Below are positions 19,934 to 63,672 of a stretch of DNA of 64,000 nt, piece by piece (position 1 is the first letter of the stretch; each line of letters begins with the position of its first letter). Under the pieces are notes generated by a model. The model did no database searches. It worked only from the letters and a program-made list of their open reading frames with translations, and was not told the DNA's origin. This DNA comes from Spirosoma rhododendri. Lineage in GTDB: Bacteria; Bacteroidota; Bacteroidia; Cytophagales; Spirosomataceae. The stretch is taken from contig NZ_CP051677.1 of the NCBI RefSeq assembly GCF_012849055.1, positions 5,099,001-5,163,000 on the forward strand. The letters run 5' to 3'. A program made the translations under genes and the position numbers.

Positions 19934-20812
19934 ATGCAGCTTCTTGACGGTAAGTTTCTTTCGGCACAGATCAAACAGGAAATAGCGGCTGAAGTCGCGC
20001 AGATACGCGAACAGGGTGGCAAGATTCCGCACCTCGTCGCGATCCTCGTCGGCACCAACGGCGCATCGGAAACGTACGTCGCGTCGAAGATGAAGAACTG
20101 CGAGGAAGTCGGCATGAAATCGACGCTGATCCGCTTCGAGCCGACCGTTACGGAGGCCGAGTTGCTTGCCGCCGTTCAGGAAGTCAACGACAACCCCGAC
20201 ATGGACGGGCTGATCGTGCAACTCCCTCTCCCCGGCCATATCAACCCCGACCGGATCATGGAAACCATCGCCCCCGCCAAAGATGTCGACGGCTTCCATC
20301 CGATCAACATCGGCCGGATGGCGAAGGGCCTCCCCGCCTACGTATCGGCAACGCCACAGGGCGTTCTCGAAATGCTGAAACGCTACAACATCGAAACAAG
20401 TGGCAAGCACTGCGTGGTGGTAGGCCGGAGTCAGATCGTGGGTTTGCCCATGTCGATTCTGATGCAACGCAACACCTACCCCGGCAACTGCACCGTTACG
20501 CTGACCCACTCGCGCACGACGAATCTGGCCGAGATCTGCCGCACCGCCGACATTCTGGTAGCGGCCCTCGGCAAGCCCGAATTCGTCACCGGCGACATGG
20601 TGAAGGAAGGAGCCGTCGTGATCGATGTGGGTCTGGAGCGCGTACCGGATGCCAGCAAGAAGAGCGGTTTTGCCCTGAAAGGCGATGTAAAGTTTGACGA
20701 GGTAGCCCCGAAGACCAGCTACATTACCCCCGTCCCCGGTGGCGTCGGCCTGATGACGATCTGCTCACTAATGCAGAATACGCTTAAAGCCGCAAGGGGG
20801 GAAGTGTATTGA
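19934..20812 (+). CDS. folD: bifunctional methylenetetrahydrofolate dehydrogenase/cyclohydrolase
   Basis: A 292-residue enzyme of one-carbon metabolism that interconverts 5,10-methylene- and 10-formyl-tetrahydrofolate using NADP. Motifs include [20 protein letters not shown] with the catalytic Lys, [21 protein letters not shown], the dinucleotide site [14 protein letters not shown], and [12 protein letters not shown] near the end. The usual PCTP before the dinucleotide domain reads SATP here. The last 13 codons and the stop are echoed at 22129-22171 beyond the WG-repeat gene; the folD stop itself has no good terminator, only 14 bases before the convergent WG gene stop. Confidence 0.95.
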
Positions 20813-20826
20813 TTATTTGCGTAAAG

Positions 20827-22005
20827 TCATTTAATCAGGGCTATGCGATAGCGACAAACGCAAATAACAAAGAAGAGTATTCCGGTAAACAGTCCGCCGT
20901 AGCGGACCCAAGTCCAGAAAACATCCATCTGAATTCCGCTATCTATTACCCGCCCTTGTGAATTAATTTCGAACCATTTGTTACCCTGATATACTTTAGC
21001 TCGACCATCTTTAAAATAGGATGCTTTGTCAAACTGAATAGGTGTAATTAGCTTACCGGTTGTATCCACGTATCCCAACCGGGTGCCAGCTCTTACTAGC
21101 GCCCGATTTTCGCAATACGTGGATACGGCTGTGTACTGAAACGGAATTACTGTTTTTCCCGTGCGGTCAACCATCCCCCATTTTTCACTTCGTTTTACCC
21201 AGATACGAGCAAGGGCAGATGGTCGCGAATCCTCGTAGATGAGGGGCACCATCATTTTTCCGGACCGGCGATTCAGGAATCCATAACGCCCATATTTTCG
21301 AACACGAACCCAGTCTTTCCAGGCATAGGTTATCTCATCAGCTTCCTCAAAGACTAGGGGCCAGACGATGTGCCCAACCGAATCCGAGAACCCGTACCGC
21401 CGGTCTTTTCCACTGCCACTGACAAGGACCGTCAACCCATCTTCGCGGTAAGTCTGCCCTCTAGAGAGATGTTGTGGTATGTAATCTACAGCCCCGCCTG
21501 AGCCTATATAAAACTCACCCGCTCCTTCACGAAAGCATTTGACGTATGGCTGACAGACCCAGCTTTTTACATAGTTTCCTATTATATAAGCATGAGCAAG
21601 TTGACTAAAAGGTTTCACGAGCTGACCTTTTGTATTCAGGTACCCGAACTTGCCCTCAGTGCTTACGACAAGGGCTTCGCCGTTATGGTAGGGATTGGCG
21701 CGCACATATAGCATTGGCACGACTAACCTACCCTGTTGATTTACATACCCGTGCTTGCCATTCAATACCACCTCGGCCATACCATCATAGAATTTGTCAA
21801 TGTCATCAAATTGGCAGGCTACGATCAAACGCCCCACAGAATCCAGTAAGCCACAATGACGCTGCTGGTAAACCAGGTAATACGTGCCGAGTTGTTTACT
21901 ATAGGTATATGGCTTTAGAAAATCCGGTCTTGGCTTGGCAAGCACAGTAGAAAATAGCGTTGCCATAAGTAGTGTTAGTCTGATGATCAGTAAGAGTTTA
22001 GACAT
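20827..22005 (-). CDS. WG repeat-containing protein with C-terminal membrane segment
   Basis: A 392-residue protein with a signal peptide (hydrophobic residues about 4-20), about eight WG-type repeats of the form (G)YxxxxGxxVxP, such as HGYVNQQGRLVVP, FGYLNTKGQLVKP, WGMVDRTGKTVIP and LGYVDTTGKLITP, and a C-terminal membrane helix near GGLFTGILFFVICVC with a basic tail. WG repeats are presumed to be binding modules; the role is unknown. Base composition is clearly more AT-rich than in folD and susC. It is inserted between folD and what looks like the older 3' end and terminator of folD, so it is probably acquired. Confidence 0.85.
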   Translation of the reverse strand: MSKLLLIIRLTLLMATLFSTVLAKPRPDFLKPYTYSKQLGTYYLVYQQRHCGLLDSVGRLIVACQFDDIDKFYDGMAEVVLNGKHGYVNQQGRLVVPMLYVRANPYHNGEALVVSTEGKFGYLNTKGQLVKPFSQLAHAYIIGNYVKSWVCQPYVKCFREGAGEFYIGSGGAVDYIPQHLSRGQTYREDGLTVLVSGSGKDRRYGFSDSVGHIVWPLVFEEADEITYAWKDWVRVRKYGRYGFLNRRSGKMMVPLIYEDSRPSALARIWVKRSEKWGMVDRTGKTVIPFQYTAVSTYCENRALVRAGTRLGYVDTTGKLITPIQFDKASYFKDGRAKVYQGNKWFEINSQGRVIDSGIQMDVFWTWVRYGGLFTGILFFVICVCRYRIALIK

Positions 22006-22128
22006 AGCCCAATAGTAAGGAGAGGATAAACGCTGCCGATACTCGTTTTCCTACAAAAGCAGTATTCTAGGTACTGCTGTACGCCTATCCGTGCCACTAT
22101 CCTTGGTGAGTACCGGTGTTGTTAGCTG

Positions 22129-22171
22129 ATGCAGAATACGCTCAAAGCTGCGCGTAGTGAGGTGTATTGAT
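22129..22171 (+). pseudogene. relic of the folD 3' end
   Basis: These 43 bases align without gaps to the last 43 bases around the folD stop (20771-20813), with 35 identical. Read in the folD frame they encode [17 protein letters not shown] against [17 protein letters not shown], so of eight substitutions nearly all are silent. The copy therefore diverged under coding constraint, not as junk, before being cut off. Homology stops abruptly upstream, one codon before the Met. A strong terminator follows at 22195. Confidence 0.85.
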
Positions 22172-35572: not shown

Positions 35573-35664
35573 TTTTTGTTATCCCGACGTCAGGAGGGAT
35601 CTTCGCTGAAAGCAAAAAAATCACCTGTTAGCGAAGATCCCTCCTGACGTCGGGATGACAAAAA
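35573..35664. repeat. ATCCCGACGTCAGGAGGGATC-type inverted repeat, copy 1
   Basis: Arms of 35 bases, 35573-35607 and 35630-35664, are complementary except one position. It lies 16 bases past the aldo/keto reductase stop and ends in an A tract (T tract on the other strand), so it can serve as a terminator for both converging genes. A second, damaged copy is at 39303-39409. Confidence 0.75.
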
Positions 35665-35685
35665 ATACAGATAAAAATCCCCCCG

Positions 35686-39302: not shown

Positions 39303-39409
39303 TTTGTCATCCCGACGCCAGGAGGGATCCGCTCCGGCGGCCCGGTTCGCTAGGAGCGAAAAAACTGCCTATTAGCGAAGATCCCTCCTAACGTCGGGAT
39401 GACAGAAAA
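39303..39409. repeat. ATCCCGACGTCAGGAGGGATC-type inverted repeat, copy 2
   Basis: The outer arms TTTGTCATCCCGACG... at 39303 and ...CGTCGGGATGACAGAAA ending near 39409 match copy 1 at 35573-35664, but the centre carries about 20 unrelated GC-rich bases. It fills most of the 255-base gap before the molybdenum oxidoreductase genes. Confidence 0.7.
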
Positions 39410-40144: not shown

Positions 40145-41175
40145 ATCCGTTTCAATTTACGCGGGTTACGACCCCCAAAGCCGCGATTTCGGCAGTTACC
40201 AAAGAAAGCGGCACCTACTTTCTGGCGGGCGGCACCAACCTCATCGACCTGATGAAGCGGGAAGTCATCGTTCCCGAACGGCTGGTCGACATCAACAAGC
40301 TGCCGCTGGCGACGATTGAAAAAACGGCGACCGGACTGCGTATCGGCGCGATGGCCAAAAACTCGACCGTAGCCGAAAACGAGCTGGTGAAGAAGAACTT
40401 CCCGCTGCTGTCGCAGGCCCTGAATGCGGGGGCGTCGGCGCAGTTGCGCAACATGGCGACCGTGGGTGGCAACATGATGCAGCGCACGCGGTGCTCGTAT
40501 TTCTACGACAACACCATGCCCTGCAACAAGCGCAGTCCCGTGCAGGCCGGCCCCGACAAAGGCGAACCCAACGGCCCAACGGGTTGCGGAGCCATTGGCG
40601 GCTACAACCGGATGCACGCCATTTTCGGCACCGAAGCGTCGGACCGATCTGAAAAGTGTATTGCCGTTCACCCCAGCGATATGTGTATCGCGCTGGTGGC
40701 ACTGGACGCGACGGTGAACGTGTCGGGGCCGAAAGGCGACCGTAAAATTCCATTCATCGACTTCCACCGCCTGCCAGGCGACATGCCACAGAAAGACAAC
40801 ACGCTGCAACCCGGCGAACTGATTATGTCAGTCGATTTGCCGATGAACAGCTTCGCCGAGAATTCGCACTACCTGAAAGTCCGTGACCGGGCGTCGTATG
40901 CCTTCGCGCTGATTTCGGTCGGGGCGGGTGTTTCGATGAAAGGTAACACGATTCAGGACGTTCGGCTGGCGATGGGTGGCGTAGCGCACAAACCCTGGCG
41001 GCTGACCGCTGCCGAGCAGTTTCTGAAAGGCAAACCGGCTACGGAAGCCAATTTCAAACAGGCGGCAGCGCTGGCGATGAAGGGTGCGAAAGGCTACGGC
41101 GAGAACGATTTCAAACTGACGATGGCCCCCAACTCGATTGTGGAAGCCCTGAAAACCGCTACTAAAACCGCCTGA
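40141..41175 (+). CDS. aldehyde oxidoreductase, FAD subunit with extra [4Fe-4S] site (PaoB-like)
   Basis: A 344-residue subunit starting at ATG 40141, which overlaps the previous stop. FAD binding is shown by FLAGGTNLIDLM (residues 27-38) and NMATVGGNMMQR (104-115). Between them and the C-terminal domain is an insertion with Cys118, Cys128, Cys149 and Cys173, the same layout as the four ligands of the [4Fe-4S] cluster in E. coli PaoB. This cluster is absent from ordinary xanthine dehydrogenases and supports a PaoABC-type enzyme. Confidence 0.9.
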   Translation: MNPFQFTRVTTPKAAISAVTKESGTYFLAGGTNLIDLMKREVIVPERLVDINKLPLATIEKTATGLRIGAMAKNSTVAENELVKKNFPLLSQALNAGASAQLRNMATVGGNMMQRTRCSYFYDNTMPCNKRSPVQAGPDKGEPNGPTGCGAIGGYNRMHAIFGTEASDRSEKCIAVHPSDMCIALVALDATVNVSGPKGDRKIPFIDFHRLPGDMPQKDNTLQPGELIMSVDLPMNSFAENSHYLKVRDRASYAFALISVGAGVSMKGNTIQDVRLAMGGVAHKPWRLTAAEQFLKGKPATEANFKQAAALAMKGAKGYGENDFKLTMAPNSIVEALKTATKTA

Positions 41176-41177
41176 CC

Positions 41178-43421
41178 ATGACCAAAGACACGAAAAACCC
41201 GCCCATCGACCGGGTCGACGGGCGGATGAAAGTGACCGGCGGGGCCAAGTACTTCGCCGAGTTTGAGATGCCGAATATGACCTACTGCGTCATCGTCGGC
41301 AGCGACATTGCGCGGGGCACCATCGCCAGCATCGACACCAAAAAGGCGGAGAACGCACCGGGCGTCGTCGGGGTATTTACCCACCAGAATATGCCCCCCA
41401 TTCCGGGTTGGGACGCGCCCGCGCAGGGAAATGGCAACGGACCACCACCGGGCCCGCCGTCGGGTGGGGAGAAGTACCGGATTCTGCACACAAAGGAAAT
41501 TCTGTTCGACGGTCAGCCGATTGCAATGGTCATTGCCGATACCTTCGAGCGGGCCACTTACGCGGCTTCGCTGGTAAAAGCGACCTACAACAAGCAGACG
41601 CCCAAAACGGATTTAGAAAAGAATCTGGCGAAGGGTGTAACGCCCAAGGGTGAGCGCTCTGCCGACTACGTGCGCGGTACCGCCGACGGCTACAAAACGG
41701 CCCCGGTGACGCTGGAAGCCGAATATACGCTGCCCACCGAGGTGCATAACCCGATGGAAATGCACGGCATTCTGGCGCATTGGACCGGCGACGACAAGAT
41801 AATGATCTACGCCAAAACGCAGGGTGTGAAAGCCACACAGCGGGCGATGGCCCAGGCGTTCAAAATAGCCCCGGACGGCATTCACGTCCATACCGAGTTC
41901 ATGGGTGGTGGCTTTGGTATGGCCCTGCGCACGTGGCCGCAGGAAACGGCCGTCGTCGCCATCGCGAAGAAAGTCGGCCGGCCGGTAAAACTGGTCATGA
42001 CCCGCTCGCAGATGTTTACGCTGGTGGGCCACCGCCCATACACGGTGCAGACGATTAACCTGGGGGCTGACAAAAACGGCAAACTCATCGGTATCGCCCA
42101 CGCGGCTACCGGCGAAACGGCCAGTTACGAGGATTTTACGGAAGGCACTGTCGGCATGACCAAGTTTATGTACGACTGCCCGAACGTGAGCACGCGCTAC
42201 AAAATTGTGCCGCTCGACCGGGGCGTACCCATCTGGATGCGCGGACCGGGCGAAGCGACGGGGGCCTACGCCCTTGAATCGGCGATGGACGAGATGGCCC
42301 ACAAGCTCAACCTCGACCCGATCCAGTTCCGCCTGCTCAACTACACCGAAACCGACCCCGAACACAACCGGCCTTATTCAGACAAAAACCTGAAGGAAGC
42401 CTATCAGCGCGGGGCCGATGCTATCGGCTGGACCAAACGCAGTAATCAGCCCGGCAACAACCGCGACGGCGACTGGCTCGTGGGCTACGGCATGAGTTCG
42501 GGGGTGTTCAACGCCAGCCGGGGACAAGCCACCGCCCGCGCCATCCTGAACGCCGACGGTTCGCTGAAGGTGCAATGTGGCGTTACCGACATCGGGCCGG
42601 GAACGGGAACGGCCATGGCCATGATCGCCCACAACGTACTGGGCGTTCCGGTTGAGAAAATAAAAGTCGAATACGGCGACACGTCATTGCCCAACGCGCC
42701 GATGCAGGGTGGCTCAACCATCACCTCGACGGTTGGTTCGGCAGTCCACGATGTTTGTACGGCCGTCAAAACCGCCCTCGCCGAGATGGCGACCAAGTCC
42801 GGCTCTCCCCTCGCGGGCGTCGCACCCAATAGCCTGACCCTTGCCGATGGTATGTTGTCGGCCAGCAACGACACCGGTAAGAAAGTCGCCGTGGCCGACC
42901 TGATGCGCAGCAACAACCAGTCGACCATCGACAAAACGCTACAGTCGAAGGGCGGGCCGGAGCAGGAGAAGTACTCGATGTATTCGTTCTCGGTGCATTT
43001 CGTACAAGTGCGCGTCAACCCCGTTACGGGCGTTGTGCGCGTGTCGAAAGCCGTGAGCGTCGCCGATTCAGGCCGGATTGTCAGTCCCAAAACGGCCGCC
43101 AGTCAGATGATTGGGGGCGTCGCGGGTGGTATTGGCATGGCCCTGACCGAAGAAGCCGTCATTGACCACCGCTACGGCCGCTACGTCAACAACAACCTCG
43201 CCGACTACCACGTTGCCGTCAACGCCGACGTTCCCCACACGGAGACCATCGTCATCGACAAGCCCGACCCGTACATCAACCCGATGGGCGCGAAAGGTAT
43301 GGGCGAAATTGCGCTGATTGGCTTTGCCGCTGCCGTCGCCAACGCGGTCTTCAACGCCACCGGCCAACGCATCCGCACCCTGCCCATCACCCCCGACAAG
43401 GTCATGCAGAAGCTGGTGTAA
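41178..43421 (+). CDS. aldehyde oxidoreductase, molybdopterin-binding subunit (PaoC-like)
   Basis: A 747-residue catalytic subunit starting two bases after the FAD subunit stop. Motifs include GRMKVTGGAKYFAEF at the N-terminus, GGGFGMALRTWPQE, MRGPGEATGAYALE, and near the C-terminus GAKGMGEIALIG with the catalytic Glu of this family. The enzyme binds molybdopterin cytosine dinucleotide and oxidises aldehydes or heteroaromatics; no XdhC/PaoD maturation factor is adjacent. Its last codons and terminator are repeated twice downstream, at 44064 and 45705. Confidence 0.93.
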   Translation: MTKDTKNPPIDRVDGRMKVTGGAKYFAEFEMPNMTYCVIVGSDIARGTIASIDTKKAENAPGVVGVFTHQNMPPIPGWDAPAQGNGNGPPPGPPSGGEKYRILHTKEILFDGQPIAMVIADTFERATYAASLVKATYNKQTPKTDLEKNLAKGVTPKGERSADYVRGTADGYKTAPVTLEAEYTLPTEVHNPMEMHGILAHWTGDDKIMIYAKTQGVKATQRAMAQAFKIAPDGIHVHTEFMGGGFGMALRTWPQETAVVAIAKKVGRPVKLVMTRSQMFTLVGHRPYTVQTINLGADKNGKLIGIAHAATGETASYEDFTEGTVGMTKFMYDCPNVSTRYKIVPLDRGVPIWMRGPGEATGAYALESAMDEMAHKLNLDPIQFRLLNYTETDPEHNRPYSDKNLKEAYQRGADAIGWTKRSNQPGNNRDGDWLVGYGMSSGVFNASRGQATARAILNADGSLKVQCGVTDIGPGTGTAMAMIAHNVLGVPVEKIKVEYGDTSLPNAPMQGGSTITSTVGSAVHDVCTAVKTALAEMATKSGSPLAGVAPNSLTLADGMLSASNDTGKKVAVADLMRSNNQSTIDKTLQSKGGPEQEKYSMYSFSVHFVQVRVNPVTGVVRVSKAVSVADSGRIVSPKTAASQMIGGVAGGIGMALTEEAVIDHRYGRYVNNNLADYHVAVNADVPHTETIVIDKPDPYINPMGAKGMGEIALIGFAAAVANAVFNATGQRIRTLPITPDKVMQKLV

Positions 43422-43440
43422 ACCATCGCATATCAACTTC

Positions 43441-43486
43441 ACTCCGCTGTCGCTATCTTTACGAAGGTCGCAGCAGCGGAGTTTTT
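43441..43486 (+). terminator. terminator of the aldehyde oxidoreductase unit
   Basis: ACTCCGCTG (43441-43449) pairs with CAGCGGAGT (43474-43482) and is followed by T5, 19 bases past the stop. A diverged second copy stands at 44137-44182. Confidence 0.75.
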
Positions 43487-43512
43487 GCATTATGAACTAA
43501 ATTGAATCTGAC

Positions 43513-43743
43513 ATGACTAAACAGGCAATCATAGACCGAACAGTCAAAGCGATAAGTCAACTCCCGGACGATAAAGCAGCAGAAATTTCAGATTTCGTCG
43601 AATTCATCAGCAAACGTTACGAAGAGCAACAGTTGACGGCCGGCTTACAAACAGCAATGGCAGAAAGTCAGGCATTTAGCTTCTTACAAGACGACGATGA
43701 CATTTATTCTGTGGATGATCTGAAAGTACCACACAATGAATAA
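43513..43743 (+). CDS. putative antitoxin (DUF2281-like)
   Basis: A 76-residue acidic protein: a helical N-terminus TVKAISQLPDDKAAEISDFVEFI, as in DUF2281-type antitoxins, and an acidic tail DDDDIYSVDDLK that could wrap the toxin. It overlaps the following MazF-type toxin gene by eight bases, the usual antitoxin-first order. It begins only 26 bases after the T run of the upstream terminator. Composition is more AT-rich than in the oxidoreductase genes, which suggests acquisition. Confidence 0.75.
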   Translation: MTKQAIIDRTVKAISQLPDDKAAEISDFVEFISKRYEEQQLTAGLQTAMAESQAFSFLQDDDDIYSVDDLKVPHNE

Positions 43744-44062
43744 GGGCGACATCGTACTGATTACGTTTCCATTCACCGATCTCAGCGGCAGCAAACTACG
43801 TCCGGCGGTTGTTTTGACCACAACAGACCTTGACCTAACAGTCTGCTTTATCACCTCGCAAATCGACTGGCAGGAATCAACGGACGTGCTGTTATTACCG
43901 ACGCCCGGAAACGGACTGAAAAAGCAATCACTGATCCGAACCAGCAAAATCGCTACGCTGGACAAATCGCTGGCTAAAAGCGAAGGCTTACTGGGTCGGC
44001 TTTCAACCAGCGATATACAGGACTCAAACAGCAAACTGAAGATACTCTTCCAACTCTCCTAA
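43736..44062 (+). CDS. PemK/MazF family toxin
   Basis: A 108-residue protein with the MazF fold markers GDIVLITFPFTDLSGSKLRP at the N-terminus, AVVLTTTD, and CFITSQI followed by the LIRTSKIATLDKSL segment near the end. Members are sequence-specific mRNA endoribonucleases. It overlaps the antitoxin gene, so both are translated together. The stop codon is separated by a single base from the relic of the oxidoreductase 3' end at 44064, a strikingly tight junction. Confidence 0.87.
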   Translation: MNKGDIVLITFPFTDLSGSKLRPAVVLTTTDLDLTVCFITSQIDWQESTDVLLLPTPGNGLKKQSLIRTSKIATLDKSLAKSEGLLGRLSTSDIQDSNSKLKILFQLS

Positions 44063-44063
44063 T

Positions 44064-44186
44064 CGCATCGGCACCCTGCTCATTACAACCGACAAGGTCA
44101 TGCACAAGCAGGTGTAAGCCGTCGCGATTCAATTTAGCTCCGCTGCTGCCATCTTTACAAAGGTAGCGGCAGCGGAGTTTTTCTAC
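44064..44186 (+). pseudogene. second copy of the oxidoreductase 3' end plus terminator
   Basis: These 123 bases align without gaps to 43368-43490, the last 18 codons of the molybdopterin subunit with 69 bases beyond it; about 100 of 123 are identical by eye. In frame the copy reads RIGTLLITTDKVMHKQV-stop against RIRTLPITPDKVMQKLV-stop. The terminator stem and T5 are kept (44138-44182). It has no start and is not a gene; it is the end of a former or incoming allele. Confidence 0.88.
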
Positions 44187-44235
44187 ATTTTCATTTTTAT
44201 ATTTATGTCGATTCGAACCACTACCACTACATAAA

Positions 44236-45180
44236 ATGAGCTTGCAAAAACTGAGTGATAGTCAAAACGGCGCGCTCAAACGACTCGAGACTAAACTCCA
44301 AGTTGCCGCATACAATGGTAATCTGAAAGCTGCGAAGGATTTAATCCAAGACATTAAGACGCTCCTCAGACCACATGGATATGAAACACGGTTAATGCAG
44401 GCAAAAAACTGGCTGTACGAAGCAAGTATAGAAGCAGGTGACTATCCATTGGCTATAGAGGGACTCAAAATTATAAAGCAAAAAACAAACAAAAACACTA
44501 GAGTACATCTTGAAGCGACAGCTTTATTAGCCATCGCCCATCTAAGAAGTAATGCGATTGACAAGGCAGAACCATTTGTAAAAGAAGTACTGACAAACGA
44601 TAAAGTAATAAAATCAGAGAAGAAGAGGACAGAATTCAGAAAATCAATTATTTAAAGATTTAATGAAGAAGTTTCTCTCTCATCTTTGAAAGGGCTCGGA
44701 GATGAGGTTCTAGACGTTGAAGAAATTACAACCCAAGCTCAAAAATTATTGGAGAAGGGTAAAGACGAGCTTTTGAAATCTATAGGGAATGCTACACCTT
44801 CTAACGTAGTGACCTCAATCTTGCAAATAGACAGTTTTTCAAAAAATCAGTTATCTTCTGCTGAGAAACTAAAATTACCTAGCCCAACCGAACAGATACA
44901 AGACGACAAAGTTGGAGAAACAATATTTTCCTCTTTTAAAAGAACTATATACAAGTCTTTATGTGACCCAGAGAGCGATATTTATAAAGCTTGGTTCACT
45001 AATGGCGTGAACTCTCTTCTTTCTAAGAAATATATTACTGGAGCTGTAGTTAGTACACTTGCAGGTCTAGGTGTGGGAATTAAAATGATTGCGGCATCCA
45101 TAACCGCATTAATTCTCAAATTCGGCATCGAAGTTTACTGTGCTCACAAGAAACCCAAAGGTGTAATGGAAATGAGATAA
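44236..45180 (+). pseudogene. unknown AT-rich gene interrupted by one in-frame stop
   Basis: The frame runs 139 codons from ATG 44236, meets TAA at 44653-44655, and continues open in the same frame to 45180. If the stop is ignored the product is 314 residues. The first half is helical with TPR-like spacing (residues about 20-130, AAYNGNLKAAKDLI, YEASIEAGDYPLAIEGL, TALLAIAHLRSNAIDKAEP); the end has a long hydrophobic stretch ITGAVVSTLAGLGVG and ASITALILKFGIEVYC. I do not recognise a family. Base composition is far more AT-rich than the surrounding chromosome. Downstream translation could restart at TTG 44686, giving 165 residues. Confidence 0.65.
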
Positions 45181-45256
45181 TCATTGCTACATCTAGATAT
45201 ATTGATCCAACTCATTGTCGTTAATTCTGACACAGGAGTGAGTGTTTTTAATTAAA

Positions 45257-45493
45257 ATGAGAACTATAAGCATTTCAATCGATGAGTCTGACTTTGACAA
45301 GTTTGGATTCGTGACAGGCAATCTAAGTTTCGCTGAACTGGTCGTGATTGTCGAAAAAGAATTGAGCCGTCAAAAACTTGAGAAGTGCATCAATAAGATA
45401 CGGAATCACGGCTTGCCTGATTTAACCATGGAAGAAATCACAGCAGAAGTTGAAGCCGTCAGAGCAGAGCGACATGCTCGGAATAGAGAATAG
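45257..45493 (+). CDS. small putative antitoxin-like protein
   Basis: A protein of 78 residues from ATG 45257 (an upstream GTG at 45242 would add five). It begins with a strand MRTISISIDESDFDKFG as in small ribbon-helix-helix-like or RelB-like antitoxins and ends with a helix MEEITAEVEAVRAERHARNRE typical of the C-terminal part of antitoxins paired with PIN or RelE toxins. The partner ORF overlaps its 3' end by 20 bases. The call rests on general resemblance only. Confidence 0.5.
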   Translation: MRTISISIDESDFDKFGFVTGNLSFAELVVIVEKELSRQKLEKCINKIRNHGLPDLTMEEITAEVEAVRAERHARNRE

Positions 45494-45701
45494 GCTAACG
45501 ATTATCGCCTTATCATTCGCTATTACAATTCATGAATATATGGGACTTATCAGAGAACCACTAGACGTCGATTTCTCCATAAAATCGAAACCTTGGACAG
45601 AGGAGGATCTTACTGATTTCAGAAAGGTAATGGGTGCTATCAGGGCAAAGAATAATTCGAAAAAGAACTCAGTACGGCCTAAGCGTGAACAGCAGATTTA
45701 A
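45474..45701 (+). CDS. small unknown ORF overlapping the antitoxin-like gene
   Basis: A 75-residue frame starting at ATG 45474 inside the preceding gene: MLGIENRLTIIALSFAITIH, then PLDVDFSIKSKPWTEEDLTDFRKVM and a Lys/Arg-rich end. A start at 45450 is possible. Position is that expected for a toxin partner, but I see no PIN or RelE motif, and it may be a truncated remnant. The stop is three bases from the third oxidoreductase 3' relic. Confidence 0.4.
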   Translation: MLGIENRLTIIALSFAITIHEYMGLIREPLDVDFSIKSKPWTEEDLTDFRKVMGAIRAKNNSKKNSVRPKREQQI

Positions 45702-45704
45702 CAA

Positions 45705-45757
45705 CCACCGGCCAACGCATCCGAACCCTGTCCATTGTCATACAGAAAATGTCGTAA
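45705..45757 (+). pseudogene. third copy of the oxidoreductase 3' end, with 12-base deletion
   Basis: Fifty-three bases matching 43357-43421. In frame the copy reads TGQRIRTLSI-VIQKMS-stop against TGQRIRTLPITPDKVMQKLV-stop, so four codons (TPDK) are missing as an exact in-frame deletion and the frame and stop are kept. It lies between the small AT-rich ORFs and the terminator of the next minus-strand gene. Confidence 0.82.
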
Positions 45758-45809
45758 AAAAACCCTGCGCCCGCTTGCCGACTTTATCATAGAGTCGGCA
45801 AACGGGCGC
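45758..45809 (-). terminator. terminator of the PRISE-type reductase gene
   Basis: Arms 45767-45783 and 45793-45809 pair over 17 bases with one mismatch and a nine-base loop. On the minus strand this is followed by GGGTTTTTTT, so it ends transcription of the reductase gene whose stop is at 45829. Confidence 0.8.
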
Positions 45810-45828
45810 GGTGATTTGAACCTGTTGT

Positions 45829-46908
45829 CTAGCGAGTTACAGCCGGAATGATTCGGTCGGCCTGTAGCTGGTTGAACAGGTCGAAAAAGGATTGGTCGGT
45901 TCGTTGGTACACGGAGAAGCCTAGCTCCCGGCTTCGCGACATATCCGTCATGACTTCGATGGGCCGTCCCAGGTCAAGGTCTGTGTGCCAGGGCGAAGCC
46001 AGTCGGGTTAGCGAGGGCTCGATTAGGTTATGCGCCGTTGCGATTTCGCGCCAGACCGCGTCATCGTCGGCCATCGTGGCTTCAAGCGGGTGAATGGTCC
46101 CGTCGAAACCAGCGGCTTCGACACCAAAATAGCTGGCTAGCTGTGGCCATAACCAACTCCACCGGAAGAAATCGCCGTTGGTGATGTTAAACGCCATATT
46201 GTGAGCCGCTTCGGTATTGGCAGCCCAAATCAACTGTTTCGCCAGTACCCGCGCATCGGTCACGTCGGAAATGCCTTCCCACTGCGCTTTGGAACCCGGC
46301 CAGCGAAAGGGTTGCCCCCGCTCCCGGCAAATTGTGGCGTAAACGGCCAGCGTCGTGCCCATGTTCATCATGTTGCCCACCGCTTTGCCGATGATGGTGT
46401 GTGGACGGTGGATGCTCCACGAGAACCCCGCCTGCGCGGCAGCCGCATAGACCTCATCCTCCTGCGCGTAGTAAAAGTTATCGATGGCTAACCGGGGCTG
46501 GTCCTCGCGCAAGGGTGTCTGGGGCAGAGAACCCGCTTTGGCGTACGCGTCGAAAGGTCCCAGATAATGTTTGAGACCCGTTACCAGCGCGACGTGCTGT
46601 ACCGAGTTTTTAGGCCGCAACACAGCCAGCAGATTACGGACCATCGCGCTGTTGACCCTGATGTTGTCGACTTCGGTTTCCTGCCGCATCCAGGTTGTAA
46701 AAAAGACGTGCGTCGGCGAGACACCCGCCAGGGCAGTCTCAAGGCTGGCGGGGTCGAGCAGGTCAGCCGCGAGGGGCCGCACATGCTCGATGCCGGGGTT
46801 TGGGTTGCGGGCAAGGCCGTAGGTGGTCCATCCCTGAGCGACCAGTTCCGTAGCCAGATTACTTCCGGCAATGCCACTTACACCCACAACAAGGGCTACT
46901 TTATCCAT
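45829..46908 (-). CDS. PRISE-like (progesterone 5-beta-reductase/iridoid synthase type) SDR oxidoreductase
   Basis: ATG 46908 is preferred because the NAD(P)-binding motif VALVVGVSGIAGSNLATELV then follows at once; an upstream frame would add 56 residues with no SDR character. The 359-residue product has the extended-SDR features of the PRISE family: VTGLKHYLGPF with the catalytic Lys-context, NFYYAQEDEVY with Tyr, and WSIHRPHTIIG. Members reduce enone double bonds with NADPH. The substrate here is unknown. It lies downstream of the Tet(X)-like gene on the same strand. Confidence 0.88.
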   Translation of the reverse strand: MDKVALVVGVSGIAGSNLATELVAQGWTTYGLARNPNPGIEHVRPLAADLLDPASLETALAGVSPTHVFFTTWMRQETEVDNIRVNSAMVRNLLAVLRPKNSVQHVALVTGLKHYLGPFDAYAKAGSLPQTPLREDQPRLAIDNFYYAQEDEVYAAAAQAGFSWSIHRPHTIIGKAVGNMMNMGTTLAVYATICRERGQPFRWPGSKAQWEGISDVTDARVLAKQLIWAANTEAAHNMAFNITNGDFFRWSWLWPQLASYFGVEAAGFDGTIHPLEATMADDDAVWREIATAHNLIEPSLTRLASPWHTDLDLGRPIEVMTDMSRSRELGFSVYQRTDQSFFDLFNQLQADRIIPAVTR

Positions 46909-47099
46909 ACTAACGTTGACTAATGCGCTACTGCCGGGCCGGGCAACATACCCTGCCTGTGGTAGCGTCTTATTCTTTTCAACGGGGAAACAGGCGGGAT
47001 AGTTACCGCGCAGTACCCGTACTGATAGGATTATCAGTGGCCGGGGCAGGGAATCAAGCCCGACCGGTACACTCAATCCGTAACCCTGAACAGCGTAAA

Positions 47100-48230
47100 T
47101 TACTCCTGAACAGCGCGGTGAAACAGGTTTTTGAACGAGAAATCGGGGTGGCGCAGGGCCAACTCGTTCTGGCTTGATTCAAGCTGGGCTGCGGTTGCGT
47201 AAATCAGCATTTTCTGTTCGTAATCGCTGATAGCCGCCTGTATAGTCGTGAAGTTCCCATTGGTGAGATTATCGGACAACGTCAGGGCATCGACCAGTCC
47301 GGTGTTGACACCCTGACCGGCGAAGGGCTGCATCAGGTGGGCCGCGTCGCCAATGACCGTGATGGGCAGCGGACGGTCCTGCGCCCAGGGTTTCGTTAGC
47401 GGCAGTTTCTTAATCGGCAACGCCCGGAACAAATCGGTGGCCTGAAACAACTGGTGGTACACCGCATTCCAGTCGGCAAACCGGTCGGAAAGAATCCGGG
47501 CCACACTGGCGGCATCCTCAAAATTGAGGTGTTCGTGTACCCACTGTTCCGACTCGCTGAGAATGACATTGTAGGTCAGGATGCCGTTGTTCCTCGGATT
47601 CGCCCCAAACAGATTTCCCTTGTACGACGCCATCAGAATGTTTCCAGTACATAGCTCGTAAAACTCCGGGCAGGCAAGTTGCGGCTCGGCGACTTCGCCC
47701 TGTATGAAAATCGTGCCGGTGTACTCGACGGCCGCATCGGTGATGTATTTCCGCACCGTCGACATACCTCCGTTGGCCCCAATAACCAGGTCGGCGGTGG
47801 TCTGTATGCCGTTGTCGAAATGCAGCAACCATTTGCCGTCGTGGGCGTCGAGCTGGGTGCATTTACCGTCCCACACCACGGTGCCCTCCGTTAGACTGTT
47901 CAGTAGCAACGTCCGCAGTTCGTTTCGGTTAATTTCGGGATTGTCGACGGCTTCTTCTTTGACAAACAGCACGTTGGCCTGTTCGTCGGCAATAATCCGG
48001 CCCATCGGTACCGCTTCGGCGAAATACTGGTCCAGCAGCCCGGCCCGTTTCATGGCTTCCTGCCCCGACGATTCGTGCAGGTCGAGAGTGCCGCCCCAGA
48101 TTCGGGCGTTGGCGTCTTTGTCGCGTTCGTACACCGTCACGTCGACGCCCGCCTGTTGTAGCAATTTTGCGGTTGTCAGCCCGACGGGACCCGCCCCGAG
48201 AATAGCGACTTTCTTTTGATTCAGTAGCAT
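47100..48230 (-). CDS. FAD-dependent monooxygenase of the Tet(X) group
   Basis: A 376-residue class A flavoprotein monooxygenase. It has the FAD dinucleotide motif VAILGAGPVGLTTAKLLQQA, the Tet(X) signature GGTLDLHESSGQEAMKRAGLL, NPEINRNELRTLLLNSL, and the late GDAAHLMQPFAGQGVNTGLVDALTLSDNL. These are closer to Tet(X) than to general UbiH-like enzymes. Of the tetracycline-contacting residues I recall in Tet(X), Gln192 and the Phe of PFAGQG have counterparts, whereas the Arg of GNRLMAS is Ile here and the His of GALHFG is Thr. Inactivation of tetracycline is thus doubtful. Confidence 0.88.
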   Translation of the reverse strand: MLLNQKKVAILGAGPVGLTTAKLLQQAGVDVTVYERDKDANARIWGGTLDLHESSGQEAMKRAGLLDQYFAEAVPMGRIIADEQANVLFVKEEAVDNPEINRNELRTLLLNSLTEGTVVWDGKCTQLDAHDGKWLLHFDNGIQTTADLVIGANGGMSTVRKYITDAAVEYTGTIFIQGEVAEPQLACPEFYELCTGNILMASYKGNLFGANPRNNGILTYNVILSESEQWVHEHLNFEDAASVARILSDRFADWNAVYHQLFQATDLFRALPIKKLPLTKPWAQDRPLPITVIGDAAHLMQPFAGQGVNTGLVDALTLSDNLTNGNFTTIQAAISDYEQKMLIYATAAQLESSQNELALRHPDFSFKNLFHRAVQE

Positions 48231-60357: not shown

Positions 60358-61965
60358 ATGGTAGCCGAAGTCGTCCGTAATCCCCGATTTGTGCAAGAAT
60401 TACCTGAAGAAGCCGCACTGAATTTTCTGGGCGTTCGCACCAGCAAGGATGTGTATTTTCAACTGTCGCCCACCGAACTTGTCGAGCATGCGCTGCGCCG
60501 GGGCGAGGGGGCGTTAACCGAAACGGGGGCGCTCATGTGCGCCACCGGTCGCTACACGGGTCGGTCGCCGAAAGACCGTTACATCGTGCGCGACAGCCTG
60601 ACCGAGGGGCGGGTCGACTGGGGAAATGTCAATATCCCGTACGACGAAGCCCGTTTCGAGCAGCTTCACCGCCGGATGCGGCACTACGTGGAATACCACC
60701 CCGTTTTTGTCCGCTACGCGCTGGCTGGTGCTGACCCGGCCCATCAATTGAAACTGTGTATTCTGACGACTTCGGCCTGGCAGAACCTGTTCTGCACGAA
60801 TATGTTCCTGCGCCCAACGGCCGACGAACTGACCGATTTTGAACCCGATTTCACGATCCTGGCCGTCCCCGACTTTCTGGCCAATCCGGCCGAAGACCAG
60901 ACGCGGGGCACCAATTTTGCCATTCTGAACCTCTCGAAACGGGTCATTCTGGTTGGCGGAACGGGCTACGCGGGTGAAATCAAGAAGGGCGTTTTCTCGG
61001 CGCTCAACTTCCTGCTGCCGCAAAAGAACGTCATGCCCATGCACTGCTCGGCCAACGTCGACCTGAACAATTCCACCGATGTAGCGTTGTTTTTCGGCCT
61101 GTCGGGAACGGGCAAAACGACCCTCTCGGCCGACCCGGAACGGGGACTGATTGGCGACGATGAGCACGGCTGGAGCGACGAAGGCATCTTCAATTTTGAA
61201 GGGGGCTGCTACGCCAAAGTTATCGACCTGACCCGCGAGCGCGAACCGCAGATTTTCGACGCCATCCGCTACGGCTCTATCGTGGAAAACACCCGGATGA
61301 TCCGTAACTCGCGCACCGTCGATTACACCGATACGACCCTGACGGAGAATACGCGTACCTCCTACCCCATTTCGTTTATCGGCAACGCCGTTGAACCGTC
61401 GGTGGGTACCCATCCACGCAACATCTTCTTCCTGACCTGCGACGCTTTTGGCGTATTGCCGCCCATCGCCCGGCTGACGACCGAGCAGGCAATGGATTAC
61501 TTCGTGCTGGGCTACACGGCGAGGGTAGCCGGTACGGAAATGGGCGTTACCGAGCCACAGGCCACGTTTTCGGCCTGTTTTGGAGCCGCTTTCATGCCGC
61601 TGCACGTCAGCGAATACGCCCGGATGCTCGGCGACAAAATCCGGCAGCACGGGGTCAATGTCTGGCTCGTGAATACCGGCTGGACGGGTGGCGGCTTCGG
61701 CGTTGGGCAACGCATGAAACTGAGCCACACCCGCTCGCTCATCCGGGCCGCCCTGACGGGCCAGCTCGCCGAAGGTCCGTTTGTGATGCACCCCGTTTTC
61801 AACCTTGCCATGCCGACCGCCTGCCCCGACGTACCAGCCCCCATCCTGGACCCGCGCCAGACCTGGGCCGACCCGATGGCGTACGACGCCAAGGCAAACC
61901 ACCTGAACAGCTTATTTGTGGATAAACGGGCATCGCTCACCAGCGCTACATCTGTCACCGTATGA
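60358..61965 (+). CDS. pckA: phosphoenolpyruvate carboxykinase (ATP)
   Basis: A 535-residue enzyme that converts oxaloacetate and ATP to phosphoenolpyruvate, the entry of gluconeogenesis. Motifs are [40 protein letters not shown], the P-loop [15 protein letters not shown] and [24 protein letters not shown] 60358 is taken as start. A GTG at 60319 is in frame but is itself the last base of the promoter -7 element, so it would not be in the transcript. The stop overlaps the fbp start by four bases. Confidence 0.95.
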
Positions 61966-62990
61966 TTACCTTCGTTGATATGCCCCTACCCGCAACGACA
62001 CAATCCGGCCAGCCGAACCTTGCTCTCCCTGTCGGTACCACCCTCGACCGCTTTATTCTGCGTGAACAGAGTGCATTCCCCTTTGCTACGGGCGAACTCT
62101 CGCAGTTGCTGCGCGACATTGCGCTGGCCAGCAAAATCATAAATCTGGAGATCAACCGAGCGGGGCTGATCGACGTGACGGGCGCGGCCGGTACCGATAA
62201 TATTCAGGGCGAATCGCAGCAGAAACTCGATGTTATTGCCAACATCCGGTTCATCCGCGCCCTGAAAAACGGCGGAGAAGTCTGCGCGATTATCTCGGAA
62301 GAGGACGACGAGATGATTCTGACGGGCAATCCCAACGGCAAGTATGTGGTCGCCATCGACCCGCTCGACGGTTCGTCCAATATCGACGTCAACGTATCGA
62401 TTGGGACCATTTTCTCCATCTACCGACGGGTGTCGCCTATTGGTTCGGAGGCTACGATGGCCGATTTTCTGCAAGGGGGGCGAAAGCAGGCAGCGGCTGG
62501 CTACGTGCTGTATGGCTCGTCGACGATTCTGGTTTTCACGACCGGGCAGGGCGTCAACGGCTTCACGCTCGATCAGTCGCTGGGTGAGTACATCCTGTCG
62601 CACACCAACATGCGCCAGCCGCACACCGGCTCGATCTTTTCGTGCAACGACGGCAACGTAGCCGACTACCCGGACTATGTGCAGACGTACCTGACCAGTT
62701 GTCGGCAGCACCGGATGACGGGCCGGTACATTGGTTCGCTCGTGGCTGATTTTCACCGTAATCTCATCAAAGGCGGCATCTACTTGTACCCGCCCACCCG
62801 CCAGTCGCCGGGCGGCAAACTCCGGCTGCTGTACGAGTGCTTTCCGATGGCGTTCATCGCCGAACAGGCCGGTGGGCGCGCCACCGACGGGCGGCAGCTC
62901 ACCCTCGACGTCGACCCGACAGAGCTACACCAGCGGTCAGTTCTGTTCGTCGGCTCACCCGACCTGATCGATAAGTTACTGATCTCCTAA
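61962..62990 (+). CDS. fbp: class 1 fructose-1,6-bisphosphatase
   Basis: A 342-residue enzyme that hydrolyses fructose-1,6-bisphosphate to fructose-6-phosphate in gluconeogenesis. Metal and substrate motifs: [36 protein letters not shown], and [16 protein letters not shown]. The ATG at 61962 overlaps the pckA stop (ATGA), which shows translational coupling with the other key gluconeogenic enzyme. Confidence 0.95.
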
Positions 62991-63099: not shown

Positions 63100-63672
63100 C
63101 TACTGGTGTCTGTCCTGTTTGGTAAGATCACCGCGTATCTTACTCAGCGCTTCCGGGGTAACGCCCAAATAGGAGGCTATCATTTTTTGGGGTACCCGCT
63201 GCGCGATAGCCGGGTAGGTGGCCAGGAAATCAAGGTAGCGCTCGCGCAGGCTTGCACTCATCAGGAGAATAATCCGCTTCTGGAGCACGTAGATTCGATT
63301 GGTCAACCGCTGAATGGCTTCCTCGCTGGGTTGATCTGTTGGGGAAATCAGACCGTCTTCCACTACTTCTACTTCCGAACTTTCAACGGCGTCGATATAC
63401 AGATCCGCTTCCTTACCCGGTACCTGCCAGCCAATATCACTGATAATCCAACCCTCTGGAGCAAACATAAAAATATGCTCCTTCCCATTGTCATCCAGGG
63501 TATAGCTACGTAGCAGGCCGGATTTTACAAAATAGTGCTTTCTCATTTTATCGCCTTTCCTAAGCAGGATTTCCCCTTTAGCCACCCGCCGGGTAATGAT
63601 CCGCGATGCCAACGCGTGATACGCTTCATCCGAAAGCTTGCCCTGGGGAATAAGATCTAAAAACGATTGCAT
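63100..63672 (-). CDS. Crp/Fnr family transcriptional regulator
   Basis: A 190-residue regulator: the first 120 residues are a cyclic-nucleotide-binding-like barrel (KGEILLRKGDKMRKHYFVKSGLLRSY, KEHIFMFAPEGWIISD), and the last 60 hold a winged helix-turn-helix with VPQKMIASYLGVTPEALSKIR. No Fe-S Cys cluster is seen. It is divergent from the DoxX gene, a common arrangement in Bacteroidota, and probably controls it. Confidence 0.9.
   Translation of the reverse strand: MQSFLDLIPQGKLSDEAYHALASRIITRRVAKGEILLRKGDKMRKHYFVKSGLLRSYTLDDNGKEHIFMFAPEGWIISDIGWQVPGKEADLYIDAVESSEVEVVEDGLISPTDQPSEEAIQRLTNRIYVLQKRIILLMSASLRERYLDFLATYPAIAQRVPQKMIASYLGVTPEALSKIRGDLTKQDRHQ

Follow-up and report, generated by a model that had tools for sequence, protein, structure and literature searches.

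Integrative elements that insert at the 3' ends of genes restore the 3' end on insertion and leave direct repeats, and the movement of integrase-free toxin-antitoxin and defence genes between chromosomes is poorly explained. The closest described systems include restriction-modification genes of Helicobacter pylori, for which insertion with long target duplication has been reported (Nobusato et al. 2000, as cited in PMC1643837), the minimal mobile element (Saunders and Snyder 2002), in the definition given in PMC3082526, and a reaction of incoming DNA in Escherichia coli in which, by the figures in PMC3240628, 56 of 60 clones were single-crossover duplications of the homologous gene end involving circularised DNA, with duplications of 109-950 bp in the 14 that were sequenced. 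This study examined a stretch of 64,000 nucleotides from Spirosoma rhododendri (hereafter the window; contig NZ_CP051677.1, positions 5,099,001 to 5,163,000), in which the 3' end of a PaoC-like gene is followed by two further copies of that end, each behind a small accessory module. Such a copy is here called a gene-end relic; G000 denotes the genome of the window, G013 that of Spirosoma oryzae, and other G numbers the other compared genomes. In total, 17 gene-genome sites with 19 relics at seven host genes were found in nine Spirosoma genomes and one Pedobacter genome. The phenomenon is firm, while the route by which it arises is not.

The PaoC-like gene and its three 3' ends

The features of the locus are as follows.
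41178..43421, + strand: host gene, 747-aa molybdenum-binding subunit, PaoC/XdhA-like (NCBIfam PaoC 595.8 bits, below the curated cut-off of 1180)
43368..43486, + strand: copy 1, the working 3' end with a terminator-like hairpin
43513..43743, + strand: DUF2281/VapB-like antitoxin of module 1 (PF10047 24.5 bits, cut-off 26.5; NF050009 below cut-off)
43736..44062, + strand: PemK/MazF-type toxin of module 1 (PF02452 E 3e-13, above cut-off)
44064..44182, + strand: copy 2, a gene-end relic with its own hairpin
44236..45180, + strand: accessory reading frame of module 2, with an in-frame stop at 44653-44655 (no Pfam match above cut-off)
45257..45493, + strand: VapB15-like antitoxin (NF047401 31.3 bits, below the cut-off of 80)
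45474..45701, + strand: small open reading frame (ORF) without a Pfam match
45705..45757, + strand: copy 3, putatively the oldest relic, with a 12-base in-frame deletion
45759..45817, no strand assigned: terminator-like inverted repeat behind copy 3

The duplication of the gene end in the window is real. Copies 1 and 2 are identical at 98 of 119 bases without gaps, and copy 3 matches the gene end at 45 of 53 bases, given an exact in-frame gap of 12 bases; an earlier note on this DNA had claimed both the ungapped recurrence of the molybdopterin subunit gene's end at 44064 and a third copy with an exact four-codon deletion, and both claims were borne out. When positions 43357-43490 were searched against the whole genome, copy 2 ranked second, behind the gene itself (E 3e-28), and copy 3 was fourth among the matches listed (E 2.5e-6), with the third match (E 1.3e-6) and another at E 0.0024 falling on the ends of two paralogues of the host gene. 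As these two matches lie at paralogue ends, the repeated gene end is not a dispersed repeat. The long match occurs only here.

The contents of the two intervals also agree with what the earlier note had read from the sequence, namely a MazF-type module between copies 1 and 2, here a PemK/MazF toxin with a DUF2281-like antitoxin, and AT-rich genes between copies 2 and 3, where G+C is 37-40% compared to 55.5% for the window. The inserted genes' stop codons lie one and three bases before the relics (PemK stop at 44062 before copy 2; stop of the last small ORF at 45701 before copy 3). In module 2, 44236-44655 and 44686-45180 form a single reading frame interrupted by one in-frame stop. By eye, the ORF at 45257-45493 looks similar to the antitoxin that S. 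oryzae carries at this site. The small ORF behind it matches, also by eye, the beginning of the S. oryzae VapC over its first dozen codons but not beyond. Between 42800 and 46800, the inverted pairs are either hairpins or scattered, and none lies at the module ends; with neither terminal inverted repeats there nor a transposase match among the module proteins scanned, a transposon was rejected. An RNA-based element was also rejected: scanning 41000-47200 against Rfam, with E values up to 1, yielded a single hit that was implausible and fell short of the gathering score.

Gene-end relics at other genes and in other genomes

The same gene end is filled differently in related species. In G023, whose protein is 94% identical, the host gene is followed by a 189-aa ORF without a Pfam match and a relic of approximately 230 bases, and in S. 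oryzae by a PIN toxin preceded by an antitoxin-like ORF, with a relic of approximately 70-95 bases behind them, so that three genomes (G000, G023 and G013) have three different fillings and different relic starts. G025 carries the same antitoxin-like/PIN pair as S. oryzae at this gene, and its contig stops inside the pair. Strains lacking the modules and having a single 3' end had been anticipated; no clean empty site was seen at the PaoC-like gene among the three closest genomes, one of whose contigs ends inside the module, but folD provides one in G025 and in other genomes. Two further host genes with such duplications lie in the window itself, folD and a fructose-bisphosphatase (FBPase) gene.
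19934..20812, + strand: folD, the second case in the window (NCBIfam FolD models, best 478.8 bits, just under the cut-off of 507)
20827..22005, - strand: gene for a 392-aa WG-repeat protein inserted behind folD (PF14903 E 4e-41)
22126..22171, + strand: folD relic, 80% identical over 46 bases
61962..62990, + strand: class 1 FBPase, the third case in the window (NF006778 above cut-off)
63103..63672, - strand: Crp-like regulator that heads the FBPase module
genome positions 5164103-5164207, beyond the window: FBPase relic, 90.6% identical over 106 bases

The terminator and flank after the folD relic of G000 are those found directly behind folD in G025, the empty site. In ten of the 30 genomes surveyed, no more than 280 bases separate folD from the gene that usually comes next, and one of the ten has an antitoxin remnant. 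Relics of folD stand behind other modules in G008, G013 and G030, and a DUF4258 pair or its antitoxin lies behind folD in G008, G018, G013 and G030, and G023 keeps a remnant; in G018 and G023, folD has no detectable relic. The folD module of G030 (locus L250) holds a RusA-family resolvase and a restriction-endonuclease-like ORF (AHJR-like/pPIWI-associated-nuclease-like), and the sequence directly behind folD in G009 and G020 resembles this module by eye. In S. oryzae, inspection by eye alone points to a shared GCCTGA-like stretch at the folD junction, a putative microhomology. An Rpn-like label for the S. oryzae folD ORFs was dropped, as these ORFs have no Pfam match.

At dnaE, a pair of DUF4258 and MqsA-like genes starts 4-6 bases past the dnaE stop in G016, G007, G033 and G023, and the repeat behind the pair measures 56, 57, 42 and 84 bases in the four species. 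A constant left spacing with a varying repeat length would follow from an inherited left junction and a newly formed right one. These lengths do not fit a fixed attachment core per site, and since relic starts vary among species at the same gene (PaoC-like, dnaE), site-specific insertion, which the earlier note had entertained, was rejected. The broader claim of that note, serial insertion at the 3' end of a core gene with the intact end regenerated upstream, was upheld by the different modules and relics in the relatives and by the empty folD site of G025. In S. oryzae, dnaE is followed by an AAA-ATPase/DUF3226 pair and a 153-base relic that is mosaic, with 13 differences from the working end in its first 78 bases compared to 2 in its last 75 (p 0.005, the split having been picked after looking). 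The dnaE end of G000 (genome 4939903-4939987, minus strand) has a short ORF that looks by eye like XisH 4 bases past the stop, followed by a XisI gene (PF08869); no relic was detected there.

In the FBPase module of G000, DoxX-like and LigB-like genes follow the Crp-like regulator, and queG of Pedobacter jeongneungensis is followed by a DUF2281/PIN pair and a 51-base relic (94%). PemK genes were found at 30 places in the genus, of which 29 were testable and four are flanked by direct repeats; these four are all host gene ends: one is the window's own, two belong to an aspartate kinase/homoserine dehydrogenase gene (G030 and G026), and the fourth belongs to a Ycf48-like gene of G030. The G026 site copies the layout of the window, with the gene, DUF2281/PemK, a short relic, small ORFs and a second relic in succession. 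For DUF4258, the best 8 of 23 places were fetched, and the five flanked by repeats are the known folD case of G008 and dnaE in G016, G007, G033 and G023. Across the 19 relics, 16 hold approximately 38-84 coding bases; the others hold approximately 183 (PaoC-like, G023), 153 (dnaE, S. oryzae) and 25 (first G026 relic).

Repeats flank 9 of 37 toxin-centred loci compared to 11 of 400 random places (Fisher p 7e-6), or 7 of 35 when two loci known beforehand are left out (Fisher p 2e-4); related species that share a site at one gene do not, however, provide independent observations. One of the 11 flanked random places is the window's own site, and the others are not non-paralogous gene ends. In addition, approximately 4 Mb were scanned for gene-end copies downstream of genes, with gene-start copies upstream as the control. 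The scan gave 21 gene-end matches, nine of them tandem paralogues and 12 others. Eight of the 21 stand with a module: the window finding, four at loci fetched for their host gene, and three unprompted cases (folD and FBPase of G000, queG of Pedobacter). Three of the 12 were discarded as intergenic or tandem repeats (the G000 4745829 region, G000 4750806 and L124). A 75-base gene-end duplicate (82.7%) behind a 218-aa gene of Pedobacter (L075, 12495-13152, minus strand), with only repeated intergenic sequence between the copies, was excluded from the 17 sites. Chance or dispersed repeats, which do account for a few scan matches, are refuted for the sites read and hardly credible as a general explanation, given the single long match in the whole genome and the excess of flanked toxin-centred loci.

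None of the 20 gene-start matches survived reading: 15 were paralogues, two were misframed receiver-domain genes, two were repeats and one was the known G023 relic. No 5' counterpart is thus confirmed, and the likely cause of the 3'-only pattern is selection, as a 5' duplication would separate the gene from its promoter. The unprompted rate of gene-end duplication is low. The three duplications of G000 lie within approximately 45 kb (window 19934-64000), and the other 800 kb scanned yielded no confirmed case; two stretches of 400 kb from G023 and G008 gave no further case, their sole non-paralogous gene-end match being a tandem array. Elsewhere in the window, 1668-2019 holds a cluster of AT-rich direct repeats, with similar repeats elsewhere in the genome, and an intergenic repeat occurs at 35602-35665 and 39346-39409 (84% identical).

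Origin of the relics

On balance, a gene-end relic is probably the scar of an integrase-free capture, with homologous recombination on one side and one end-joined junction on the other. We infer the recombination route, the circular intermediate and the direction of transfer as follows. Donor DNA from a relative would bring the terminal part of a core gene together with a small accessory module and recombine with the recipient's version of that gene. Homologous recombination of the ordinary kind would keep the gene whole on one side; on the other, the module end would be joined illegitimately at a point approximately 40-70 bases (at most some 180) ahead of the recipient gene's stop. In the simplest route, a linear fragment would be circularised by end joining and enter via one RecA-type crossover, duplicating the gene end. 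The outcome would be an intact gene upstream, the module next and, left as the relic, the former end followed by the flank native to it; repetition at one gene would stack relics, the farthest being the oldest. Homologous entry with one joined junction would explain the intact gene, the native flank, the varying relic starts, some allele-type differences and the stacking. The mosaic dnaE relic of S. oryzae needs homologous exchange inside the repeat and shows that this took place, either on entry or later by gene conversion; as a sign of homologous movement in the flanking genes it is suggestive only.

Codon differences between working end and relic were counted as silent/changing, some of the compared lengths running into the junction, which adds changing codons. 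The counts are 7/0 (S. oryzae), 20/6 (G023), 2/6 (window copy 2) and 3/5 (window copy 3) at the PaoC-like gene; 12/2 (S. oryzae), 10/5 (G023), 2/2 (G016) and 0/2 (G007) at dnaE; 5/1 (G000), 6/6 (G008) and 1/5 (G013) at folD; and 2/3 at FBPase, 0/2 at queG, 2/1 at the homoserine dehydrogenase gene of G030 and 1/2 at the Ycf48-like gene. Silent-site divergence in some of the relics (PaoC-like and dnaE of S. oryzae and G023, and folD of G000) suggests that diverged alleles met. The earlier note had argued that the relics are diverged alleles, since they keep frame and stop. This view suits the PaoC-like relics of S. oryzae and of G023, whose relic is nearer to the G000 and G013 ends than to G023's own, but not those of the window: copies 2 and 3 appear to have the pattern of decay after duplication, because changing codons prevail in both and copy 2 is nearest its own gene end (p 0.158, compared to 0.246-0.298 to the three relatives' ends). 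Judged by these counts, both histories are present, diverged alleles in some pairs and decay in others.

It is also possible that the target was duplicated locally, the module entering a staggered break in the last codons and repair copying the gap, so that both ends are native and the relic decays. Besides window copies 2 and 3, the pairs that are identical or nearly so would fit this origin. No difference between the ends was seen, over the bases compared, at dnaE of G033 (33 bases), folD of G030 (100% over 51 bases) and the thrA-like gene of G026 (second relic, 42 bases); the queG pair mentioned above is at 94%. Local duplication is a serious rival for the decayed and identical pairs. It cannot, however, account for the S. 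oryzae and G023 pairs that differ solely or mostly at silent sites, and alone it leaves unexplained that no purely intergenic or 5' duplication is confirmed; as an account of the whole we regard it as unlikely.

Several points weigh against integrase-free capture by homologous recombination. Ten of the 15 differing pairs are not clearly silent-rich, and when pooled (19 silent, 34 changing codons) they fit local duplication followed by decay equally well; the grouping into silent-rich and other pairs was made after the pairs were seen. The PaoC-like gene has no sharp drop in identity marking an imported end. The two folD ends of G000 have 4 and 5 differences from G025 in 42 bases and 8 between them, and being about equally distant from G025 they do not prove import there. 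Likewise, the dnaE relic of G023 is no closer to its sister G000 than the working end of G023 is (0.798 each). The evidence for competence is one ComEC-family protein in G000, which carries little weight; the family is also matched in 10 of the 14 controls. No strain pair caught the event, every comparison being between species.

The position of the relics allows for a mirror event, in which a module-free allele enters a module-bearing cell, cells that lose the toxin-antitoxin pair die, and survivors joined just past the module keep the extra end. As counted by reading the sites, 15 of the 19 relics begin within 25 bases of the module stop codon (the exceptions are at 54 bases, at 39 bases, and two whose nearest gene faces the opposite way, folD of G000 and dnaE of S. 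oryzae). Moreover, many modules are toxin-antitoxin pairs, and most are toxin-antitoxin or defence-like genes. The mirror event fails to cover the WG-repeat and DoxX/LigB modules, and we consider it distinctly improbable, although its product is the same as that of capture and sequence alone hardly separates the two.

Cargo families include PemK, PIN, DUF4258, WG-repeat, DoxX, LigB and AAA/DUF3226, and some module ORFs have no Pfam match at all. Part of the module ORFs were scanned for mobility genes, and no integrase or transposase was matched in Pfam among 25 module proteins from relic-bearing sites (XisI, scanned from a relic-free site, is outside the 25). A weak phage-type kinase domain lies between the G026 relics, and eight module proteins compared with PADLOC gave no match. 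The relics could have been left by islands that carried an integrase, inserted at gene 3' ends with restoration, as in tRNA genes, and later lost the enzyme; the restored 3' end and direct repeats of approximately 40-70 bases at many sites would agree with this. The absence of a match among the 25 proteins, the seven host genes, the repeat start that varies by species at the same gene, and ends that are often 76-90% identical make such islands very improbable. An enzyme acting in trans, or an unrecognised one in the ORFs without matches, may also be involved.

A bolder and doubtful proposal is that the duplicated ends serve as working homology arms, with which a toxin-antitoxin or defence cassette lying between two such ends could enter any genome that has the gene via host recombination alone, whatever lies downstream. 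If true, this would be a class of enzyme-free mobile cassette that parasitises core-gene ends, is layered by successive arrivals and is kept by addiction. The gene-end relic is a simple scar that can be scanned for; it dates and orders arrivals, tells what the old end was and gives predictions of empty sites.

Comparison with described systems

Narrow searches found no literature on the duplication of gene 3' ends by toxin-antitoxin modules. Unlike integrative elements at gene 3' ends, the sites described here have no integrase matched among the proteins scanned, no fixed core and many host genes. Compared to insertion with long target duplication, as outlined in PMC1643837, they are alike in that addiction-type accessory genes stand between long direct repeats of the target and an empty site exists in a relative. 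They differ in that the target here is always a gene 3' end and several relics may be stacked at one gene; the cargo, in Bacteroidota, is toxin-antitoxin, defence-like or metabolic and not restriction-modification, with one restriction-endonuclease-like protein (behind folD of G030). In addition, some of the repeats appear to be diverged alleles and not copies of one another (S. oryzae, G023), although copies 2 and 3 of the window do fit.

As with the minimal mobile element, in the sense of the definition in PMC3082526, different small cassettes lie between the same conserved genes and are ascribed to homologous recombination (folD in 30 genomes; the PaoC-like gene in G000, G023 and G013). Here, however, the end of the conserved gene is duplicated behind the cassette, and species rather than strains are compared. 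With the capture proposed here, homology-facilitated illegitimate recombination and single crossover of circularised DNA, as portrayed in PMC3240628, share one homologous and one illegitimate side, and the single-crossover products duplicate the gene end. That system is a laboratory reaction with much longer duplications (109-950 bp), and in its classic form homology-facilitated illegitimate recombination is an insertion with deletion, unlike the gene-end duplications of Spirosoma and Pedobacter.

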